Below the pieces are notes generated by a model that was not told the DNA's origin, did not search any database, and was given only the letters and a program-made list of their open reading frames with translations. Below, one piece after another: positions 41,109 through 59,173 of a stretch of DNA of 64,000 nt. The translations under genes were made by a program, and so were the position numbers. Position 1 is the first letter of the stretch. Each line of letters begins with the position of its first letter. The DNA is from Magnetococcales bacterium (GTDB lineage Bacteria; Pseudomonadota; Magnetococcia; Magnetococcales; Magnetaquicoccaceae), in assembly GCA_011089965.1 (NCBI GenBank), contig JAANAU010000018.1, forward strand, positions 1-64,000. The letters run 5' to 3'.

Positions 41109-42225
41109 TCAAGCAGACTGCTGCCCCTCTCCGATTCTCTGGGCAAGTGCAGCCTTGATGAAATCATCCAGATCGCCATCCAGCACGGCATCTGCCGCCC
41201 CCTTTTCCACGCCGGTGCGCAAATCTTTCACCAAGCGATAGGGGTGCAGCACATAGGAACGGATCTGACGGCCCCAACCGATCTCGCTTTTGGCATCGTT
41301 GACCAGTTTGGCCTCTTCGGCGCGTTTGTCCAGTTCCAGTTGATAGAGTCGCGCCCGCAGCATGCTGAAGGCTTCATCCTTGTTGCGATGTTGTGAACGT
41401 CCGTTTTGACACTGCACGACAATTCCGGTGGGAAAGTGGGTGATGCGGATGGCCGAGCTGGTCTTGTTGACGTGCTGTCCTCCGGCACCGGAGGCGCGAT
41501 AGGTATCGATGCGCAGATCCTTGTCTTCGATTTCGACCTGGATGCTGTCATCGATCTCCGGATAGACATACACCGACGAAAACGAGGTGTGGCGTCGCGC
41601 CGAGGCATCAAACGGACTGATGCGCACCAGCCGATGCACGCCGCTTTCGGTCTTCAGGCGTCCATAGGCAAACTCCCCTTCGATGCGCAGGGACACCGAC
41701 TTGCAGCCTGCCTCATCTCCGGGCTGGTAGTCGTTCATCTCCACCTTGAAACCGTGGGATTCGCACCAGCGCAGGTACATGCGCAACAACATGTCCGCCC
41801 AGTCCTGGGATTCGGTGCCGCCTGCTCCGGGATGGATTTCCAGAAAGGCGTTGTTGATGTCGGCCTCGCCGGACAGCATGCGTGCCAACTCCAGCGCATC
41901 GACCCGTTCCAGCAGGGTTGCCGACTGTTGGGCCACATCGGCCAGCAGCGCCTCTTCCTGCTCTTCCAGGGCCATGGCATGGAGTTCGCGCGCATCGCGC
42001 AACTCCCGGTCCAGATGTTCCCACTCACCGATGGTTTTTTCCAGGCGGCTTTTTTCGCGCATGACCTCTTTGGCGCGGGTGGGGTTGTTCCAGAGGGTTG
42101 GGTCTTCGGTAAAGGAGTTCAGCTCCTCCAGGCGTTTTTTTCCATGATCGTAGTTAAAGATGCCCCCTAAGGAGAATTAATTTCTCCTTGATGGCGTCCA
42201 GGTTGCGCGGAACATTCTCTTCCAT
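41109..42225 (-). CDS. prfB: Peptide chain release factor 2, with programmed +1 frameshift at UAA
   Basis: RF2 of 371 residues made from two frames: codons 1-23 from ATG at 42225 to CTT at 42157, then after skipping T42156 the frame 42155-41109. The junction protein reads LRGHL then NYDHGKKRLEELN, matching the RF2 N-terminus. The conserved GGQ lies in ASGAGGQHVNKTSSA, and the anticodon-like SPF in VRISPFDASARRH. Taken without frameshift, only a 317-residue fragment from an internal ATG at 42062 would be annotated. The shift-site stop is TAA, not the TGA normally found, so the residue encoded after the shift is Asn instead of Asp. The chemosensory operon follows 67 bp downstream. Confidence 0.93.
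42154..42168 (-). promoter_or_regulatory. prfB: prfB programmed frameshift site with UAA stop
   Basis: On the minus strand AGG GGG CAT CTT TAA C: an internal Shine-Dalgarno AGGGGG, then three bases, slippery CTT and a stop. It is identical in layout to the classic RF2 autoregulation site except TAA for TGA (and CAT for TAT). RF1 also reads UAA, so the sensing of RF2 level should be weaker. Confidence 0.85.
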
Positions 42226-42311
42226 AGTTGTTAAACCTTTACTGACTGAGTCGTAACAGGGAAACTTGAACATAAAATTTTAGCACAATGGAGAACATGG
42301 CGTCAAACCCA

Positions 42312-57583: not shown

Positions 57584-59173
57584 ATGGGTTCCATGGAGCA
57601 GGAGGTGCGGCGTCGGCGGACGTTCGCGATCATTTCTCATCCCGATGCGGGCAAGACCACTCTGACGGAAAAGCTGTTGTTGTTCGGCGGTGCCATTCAG
57701 GAGGCAGGGCGGGTGCGCGCGCGCGGAGAGCAGCGTCGTGCCCGTTCCGACTGGATGAAGGTGGAACGGGAGCGCGGCATCTCGGTTACGGCTTCGGTGA
57801 TGACCTTTGAGTATGATGGGCATGTGCTCAATTTATTGGATACACCGGGTCATGCCGATTTCTCCGAGGATACCTTTCGCACCCTGACGGCAGTGGATTC
57901 GGCGGTGATGGTGTTGGATGCGGCCAAGGGGATCGAGTCGCAAACCCTGAAGCTGTTCGAGGTGTGCCGGTTGAGGGATGTGCCGATCATCACCTTTGTC
58001 AACAAGATGGATCGGGATGCCCTGGATACGTTCAGTTTGATGGATCAGATTGCCGAGCAGTTGGCCCTGGAGGTGGTTCCGGCCAACTGGCCGGTGGGAA
58101 TGGGAGGGGAGTTTCAGGGTTGTTATGATTTGTTCAATGAACGCATGATCTTCATGGAGCGGGTACGGGCCGGAGCGGACAATACCTCGGAAACCTGTAC
58201 CGGGATTGACGATGCGCGGTTGGATGGTTGGCTGCCAGCCCGGCTGTTGGCTCAGGCGCGTGAAGAGATCGAGATGGTGCAGGGTTTGTGTGCTCCGTTT
58301 GATCCCAAATCTTATCGTGAAGGGCATTTGACTCCGGTATTTTTTGGCAGTGCCATGTATGATTTTGGGGTCAAGGAGTTGTTGCAGGCCATGGTTGATC
58401 TGGCCCCGCCGCCGCGACCGCAGTTGGCGGAACAGCGACTGGTGGATCCGGAAGAGGAGAAGGTGTCGGGTTTTGTTTTCAAGATCCAGGCGAACATGGA
58501 CCCCAATCATCGGGATCGGATCGCCTTTCTGCGGTTGGTTTCCGGTCGGTTCCGGCGCGGCATGAAACTTAAGCATGCGGTCAACGGCAAGATTCTGGCG
58601 ATTCACAACCCTCTGTTGTTCCTGGCGCGGGAACGGGATCTGGCTGAAGAGGCGTATGCCGGGGATGTGATCGGGATTCCCAACCATGGGGTATTGCGTA
58701 TCGGAGATACGTTGACCGAAGGGGAACCTTTGAAATATACCGGGGTGCCGAGTTTTGCTCCGGAGTTGTTGCGGCGCGTGCGTCCAGAGGATCCAATGCG
58801 GGTCAAGCATCTGGAGAATGCCTTGCGCCAGTTGGGCGAGGAGGGGGCGGCGCGGGCCTTCAAGACCTTGTTGGGTTCGCAATGGATTGTCGGGGTGTTG
58901 GGGGCCTTGCAGTTCGAGGTGTTGGCAGACCGGATCCGCACCGAATACGATGTTCCGGTCCGTTTTGAGGATGCGGGGTATATCACGGCCCGCTGGTTGG
59001 AGTCGGATGATCCCCGGTTGTTGAAGCGGTTCGTGGATGCGGCCCAGGCTGAGATGGCCGAGGATTATGATGGTTCTCCGGTGTTTTTGGCGCGCAATCG
59101 CTGGCGGTTGGACGATGCCATCAAGGAGTGGTCCGGGGTGCGTTTCCTGAAGGTGCGCGAGGGGACCAATTGA
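57584..59173 (+). CDS. prfC: Peptide chain release factor 3
   Basis: 529-residue translational GTPase that recycles RF1 and RF2. G1 is SHPDAGKTTLTEK near residue 20, G3 LLDTPGHADFSEDTF near 90 and G4 VNKMDR near 145. Domains 2 and 3 follow with normal length. It ends a long + strand run; a strong hairpin follows 39 bp after the stop. Confidence 0.95.
   Translation: MGSMEQEVRRRRTFAIISHPDAGKTTLTEKLLLFGGAIQEAGRVRARGEQRRARSDWMKVERERGISVTASVMTFEYDGHVLNLLDTPGHADFSEDTFRTLTAVDSAVMVLDAAKGIESQTLKLFEVCRLRDVPIITFVNKMDRDALDTFSLMDQIAEQLALEVVPANWPVGMGGEFQGCYDLFNERMIFMERVRAGADNTSETCTGIDDARLDGWLPARLLAQAREEIEMVQGLCAPFDPKSYREGHLTPVFFGSAMYDFGVKELLQAMVDLAPPPRPQLAEQRLVDPEEEKVSGFVFKIQANMDPNHRDRIAFLRLVSGRFRRGMKLKHAVNGKILAIHNPLLFLARERDLAEEAYAGDVIGIPNHGVLRIGDTLTEGEPLKYTGVPSFAPELLRRVRPEDPMRVKHLENALRQLGEEGAARAFKTLLGSQWIVGVLGALQFEVLADRIRTEYDVPVRFEDAGYITARWLESDDPRLLKRFVDAAQAEMAEDYDGSPVFLARNRWRLDDAIKEWSGVRFLKVREGTN

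Follow-up and report, generated by a model that had tools for sequence, protein, structure and literature searches.

A prfB frameshift site carrying UAA instead of UGA throughout the assembled sites of one genus of Magnetococcales

The prfB gene of release factor 2 (RF2) is the textbook example of an autoregulatory frameshift, and the UGA codon at its shift site has been argued to be the very point of the circuit. In the window (the whole stretch of 64,000 nucleotides that was analysed), the minus strand reads AGGGGG CAT CTT TAA C, with TAA at 42156-42154. The question raised by this locus is whether such a site still works as a prfB +1 site, and to which release factor it would respond. A prfB cassette with UAA for UGA and with RF2 in the +1 frame had already been proposed by the first-pass annotation, and both the cassette and its exact location were borne out by direct reading and by TIGR00020. 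The elements of the site are as follows:

42154..42225, minus strand: zero-frame leader ORF1 of prfB, 23 codons plus TAA, with ATG at 42225-42223
42163..42168, minus strand: internal Shine-Dalgarno-like (SD) element AGGGGG, by direct reading
42162-42160, minus strand: CAT, the E-site codon and three-base spacer between the SD and the slippery codon, by direct reading
42157..42159, minus strand: slippery CUU Leu codon, CUUU together with T42156, by direct reading
42154..42156, minus strand: in-frame UAA stop where UGA is usual, with C 42153 as the next base, by direct reading
41109..42155, minus strand: RF2 coding frame reached through the +1 shift, 348 aa plus the TGA stop at 41111-41109, by translation and TIGR00020

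When T42156 is skipped, the frame runs from AAC 42155 as AAC TAC GAT CAT and onwards for 348 aa, and NCBIfam TIGR00020 identifies its product as RF2 (514.3 bits, with the cut-off at 370). That is to say, RF2 in the +1 frame, a short zero-frame leader ending at an in-frame stop, an SD-like element three bases 5′ of the slippery codon, CUU U and a C after the stop are all in place, and the stop itself can be read by RF2 (PMC12421855); what is replaced, here and in the other genus genomes with an assembled site, is the RF2-specific UGA. No Rfam match was obtained at the frameshift site. The leader ATG lies at the same distance in 36/36 distinct Magnetococcales leaders, while AGGGGG belonged to the pattern by which the relatives were collected, and its constancy among them is given by construction. 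Compared with the E. coli-type prfB site, the leader ORF, AGGGGG, the three-base spacer, CUU, the stop, the C and the +1 RF2 frame are shared, whereas UGA C and the E-site UAU of that type are replaced here by UAA and CAU. The E-site CAU is also found in nearly all of the order Magnetococcales.

UAA at prfB sites is already known. In the survey of Prince et al. 2025, UGA was found in 98.6% and UAA in 1.4% of 8,164 motif genomes, with no UAG, and the UAA cases were scattered, not broadly fixed in particular clades (PMC12421855). UGA is thus near-invariant, as the first-pass annotation had stated; it is typical of known sites and not universal, and its absence is no bar to membership among prfB sites. 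The UAA-type sites of that survey resemble the present one in having CTTTAA inside an otherwise canonical cassette, but they are scattered, whereas here UAA is present wherever the site is assembled in the genus and goes back to one event; it is in this fixation throughout a genus that the finding goes beyond the 2025 survey. When about 85,000 species genomes were scanned with AGGGGGNNYCTTTAACYWNGA, 27 matches were obtained, among which 15 were real prfB genes by translation, a lower bound since the pattern is narrow. Six of the 15 belong to Magnetococcales, and the other nine come one each from Sumerlaeia, Sphingobacterium, Contendobacter, Legionella, Zixibacteria, Comamonadaceae, Schleiferiaceae, Thiodictyon intracellulare and Serratia symbiotica. 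Among these scattered cases, fixation within the own genus was checked for Contendobacter only: all gammaproteobacterial loci compared carry UGA (30/30), including the two nearest to the Contendobacter case (85-87% identity). With a UGA-or-UAA pattern in a sample of the phylum, 40 UGA and no UAA sites were found outside the class; with an alphaproteobacterial pattern the counts were 64 UGA and 1 UAA.

Within the order, CTTTAAC with the full cassette is present in 8/8 separately assembled genomes of the same genus in which the site is assembled; three further members (G004, G007 and G009) have no assembled site and are uninformative. The whole cassette was found in every genus genome whose prfB 5′ part was reached by the protein search. 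In the pattern search of 48 class genomes, CTTTGAC is carried by all the other class genomes that match the motif (29/29), the sister genus of the same family included. TGA in a sister genome, which the first-pass annotation had named as a possible refutation, was not found among the other species of the genus with the site, which have TAA. In an RF2 tree computed with the site residue left out, the UAA rows group together with SH-aLRT 99, and a single change is needed. UAA has been stable while RF2 diverged within the genus down to about 84% identity, which suggests that the codon need not strictly be one read by RF2 alone. The retained A itself argues weakly for selection acting on the stop codon, because 9/48 two-fold purine codons of RF2 (about 19%) are invariant across the same 8 genes anyway, and a protein-level constraint on Asn would serve equally. 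In a neighbouring family, f11 (three genomes; L037, L038 and L040), the prfB frameshift has been lost and RF2 is encoded in frame with the leader; a 4.72 Mb single-contig genome is included in this family. One order thus offers a comparison between a UAA genus, UGA sister genera and a related family without the shift.

Since UAA is read by RF1 as well, the first-pass annotation had supposed that the feedback loop is broken or rewired, and that either RF1 is unusually weak in this organism or the switch was relaxed. The readability by RF1 is right: in E. coli reporters with UAG in the prfB frameshift window, RF1 mutants cut termination about 10-fold, and so, given a stop that RF1 can read, termination at this site can be governed by RF1 (PMC2680264). 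A weak RF1 is not supported by the genus sequences: each of the 11 genomes has one prfA, with canonical PxT and GGQ motifs and no sign of weakness. RF2 carries SPF (RISPFD), GGQ (YRASGAGGQ) and Ala246, position 246 being one where Ala or Ser is expected and Ala being the efficient residue. It has been reported that RF2 with Ala246 plays a major role at UAA in E. coli, with footprint densities for RF2 about 6-9 times those for RF1 (PMC5373646). The gene of RF3 is also present:

57593..59161, plus strand: prfC (RF3), TIGR00503 at 665 bits, over the cut-off

About 15 kb of the window separate it from prfB. An extra release-factor paralogue was also sought in the window's genome and rejected, as only RF1 and RF2 matched; in a search for tRNA-Sec in this genome, the best match was under the cut-off of the family, and weak matches appeared in all controls too. 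The RF2 of the genus has several fixed changes at positions conserved in the rest of the class, namely Asp to Asn at the site, His to Arg (IGWGHQIR to IGWGRQIR), Asn to Ala giving GAADxVLDG, and EGGVH to ESGVH, and given these substitutions at otherwise conserved positions, RF2 activity in the genus may differ.

Stop codon usage was sampled with a crude ORF caller (43-86 ORFs, 80-144 kb per genome). On this basis UGA makes up 63-78% of stops in four genus genomes, with UAA at 15-22% and UAG at 7-21%, and 47-55% in two sister-genus genomes. In other UGA-site families of the order UGA ranges from 33 to 74%, so that a high share of UGA does not set the genus apart. In the one sampled f11 genome, without the shift, UGA accounts for 40% of stops, which in this single case speaks against the simple view that the shift is lost through high UGA usage. 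The high UGA usage suggests that RF2 is abundant in the genus. A larger share of RF2 is reported to go with a higher ratio of UGA to UAG (PMC4989110), so that UAA in the genus is probably read mainly by RF2.

On this evidence, we consider it likely, with good though not full confidence, that the site is a functional prfB +1 site in which one G-to-A transition on the genus stem turned UGA C into UAA C, and that the loop is diluted, not abolished; the same transition would have changed the shifted-frame Asp (GAC) to Asn (AAC). When the ribosome arrives at CUU, the internal SD would pair with 16S rRNA and a pause would occur at UAA C; if no release factor is at hand, slippage from CUU to UUU would follow and RF2 would be made. 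Because RF2 can terminate at UAA too, it would keep limiting its own synthesis, and RF1 would act as a second terminating input, probably smaller than that of RF2. Among the stop signals of E. coli the weakest is UGA C, and a change to UAA C would be expected to increase termination and to bring down the RF2 set point; that is, the set point of the loop would be shifted toward more termination. Since RF1 is intact, RF2 has Ala246 with SPF and GGQ, RF3 is present, and the SD, the slippery codon and the fourth-base C are unchanged, it is most likely that +1 shifting is retained, with RF2 as the main sensor. A loop broken outright, as was first suggested, is unlikely for an RF2 that reads UAA, carries Ala246 and belongs to a genus so rich in UGA stops.

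Several other explanations have to be weighed against this diluted loop. Autoregulation might have been relaxed or lost, RF1 dominating termination at UAA and the site serving as a near-constant attenuator of RF2 instead of a sensor; RF1 does read UAA, and the complete loss of the shift in f11 indicates that relaxation occurs in the order. A decaying sensor, however, should lose the SD, the slippery codon or the fourth-base C over a divergence of this extent, all of which are kept in 8/8 genomes, and the high UGA usage speaks for abundant RF2, so this explanation is judged unlikely. The substitution might also have been driven by the protein, Asn being favoured over Asp in RF2 or equivalent to it, and UAA being a tolerated by-product. 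Asn occurs at the same residue in two of the three frameshift-free f11 relatives, and further RF2 residues fixed in the genus are unusual too; on the other side, Asp is found in all 22 aligned RF2s with a UGA site, but UGA C forces that codon, so this says little either way. Such a cause is rather unlikely, and as it concerns only why UAA became fixed, it is compatible with the mechanism preferred here.

The remaining two explanations deny the frameshift or the codon itself. RF2 could begin at an internal codon without any frameshift, and an ATG does exist at 42062, which the first-pass annotation had put forward as a possible refutation; yet the leader ATG at 42225 is conserved in the compared leaders, the residues ahead of the Met at ATG 42062 are conserved in relatives, and the f11 relatives carry the same leader in one frame with RF2, which makes an internal start very improbable. 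As for a sequencing or assembly error, nothing was found in its favour, and the same codon in 8 separately assembled genus genomes refutes it, leaving it a negligible probability.

Besides the known elements of the cassette, an inverted repeat directly 5′ of the SD can be folded into a stem-loop:

42169..42189, minus strand: predicted RNA stem-loop abutting the SD, fold -8.5 kcal/mol, prediction only
42189-42182, 42181-42177 and 42176-42169, minus strand: stem arm AAGGAGAA, loop ATTAA and stem arm TTCTCCTT, respectively

Since the tests of the stem were chosen after this inverted repeat had been seen, the stem-loop is presented as a hypothesis. Third codon positions within it are constrained in the Magnetococcales leaders: Glu is GAG in 35/36, the preceding codon ends in G in 36/36, and the Leu codon of the stem is CTC or CTT in 36/36, though CTG and TTG are mostly the commoner Leu codons. 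The 24-base segment that precedes the SD folds more stably than its synonymous shuffles do (mean z -2.25, 27 Magnetococcales leaders), and among the 19 segments tested it alone shows so large an effect. Weaker, but at the same place and with other stem sequences, the peak is seen in gammaproteobacteria (-1.11, 58 leaders) and in alphaproteobacteria (-0.94, 29 leaders); further loci with the predicted stem-loop are L128-L157, L200-L229 and L230-L259. After similar leaders were thinned, the two gammaproteobacterial sets stay significant (p 0.02 and 0.003); the effect is not significant in alphaproteobacteria (p 0.16) or in Magnetococcales, where 3 leaders are left (p 0.12). In the three f11 genomes, which have kept the leader peptide and lost frameshifting, the stem effect is gone (z +0.4, -0.8 and -0.6). 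As to covariation, a named gammaproteobacterial stem of 7 pairs beats shuffles, with 0/500 reaching the observed score under a control that ignores relatedness; in Magnetococcales the pairs are mostly invariant and no measure lies clearly beyond shuffles, and RNAalifold gave no consensus structure for 38 gammaproteobacterial sites. A stronger stem-loop as compensation in the UAA genus was considered and rejected, its energies overlapping those of the sister genus.

Working in vitro with 70S ribosomes, Huang et al. 2018 showed that +1 shifting at CUUUGA can be stimulated by a hairpin placed upstream (PMC6321510). The likeness lies in an RNA hairpin 5′ of a CUU shift site; the difference is that the engineered hairpin replaced the SD and stood next to the E site, whereas here a predicted natural stem stands directly 5′ of the SD. 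The open-access literature that was searched, a part of the whole, contained no description of a natural stem at this prfB position. If real, the stem-loop would add an element to the best-studied bacterial frameshift site and would matter for reporters in which the upstream region is recoded. It is tentatively proposed, as a possibility that we regard as doubtful when taken as a whole, that prfB in the genus senses the total UAA-reading capacity (RF1 plus RF2) as a stable two-input circuit, and that the Pseudomonadota cassette has a fourth cis element, a shift-aiding stem-loop at the 5′ edge of the SD that is gone where frameshifting has been lost.

At this same edge, 18/36 Magnetococcales leaders have CTA as the Leu codon ahead of AGG, although in the sampled genomes CTA makes up only about 1-7% of all Leu codons; the window's own codon before AGGGGG is CTT (42171-42169, minus strand). 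In two gammaproteobacterial prfB genes (L200 and L201), the internal SD is CGGGGG in place of AGGGGG.
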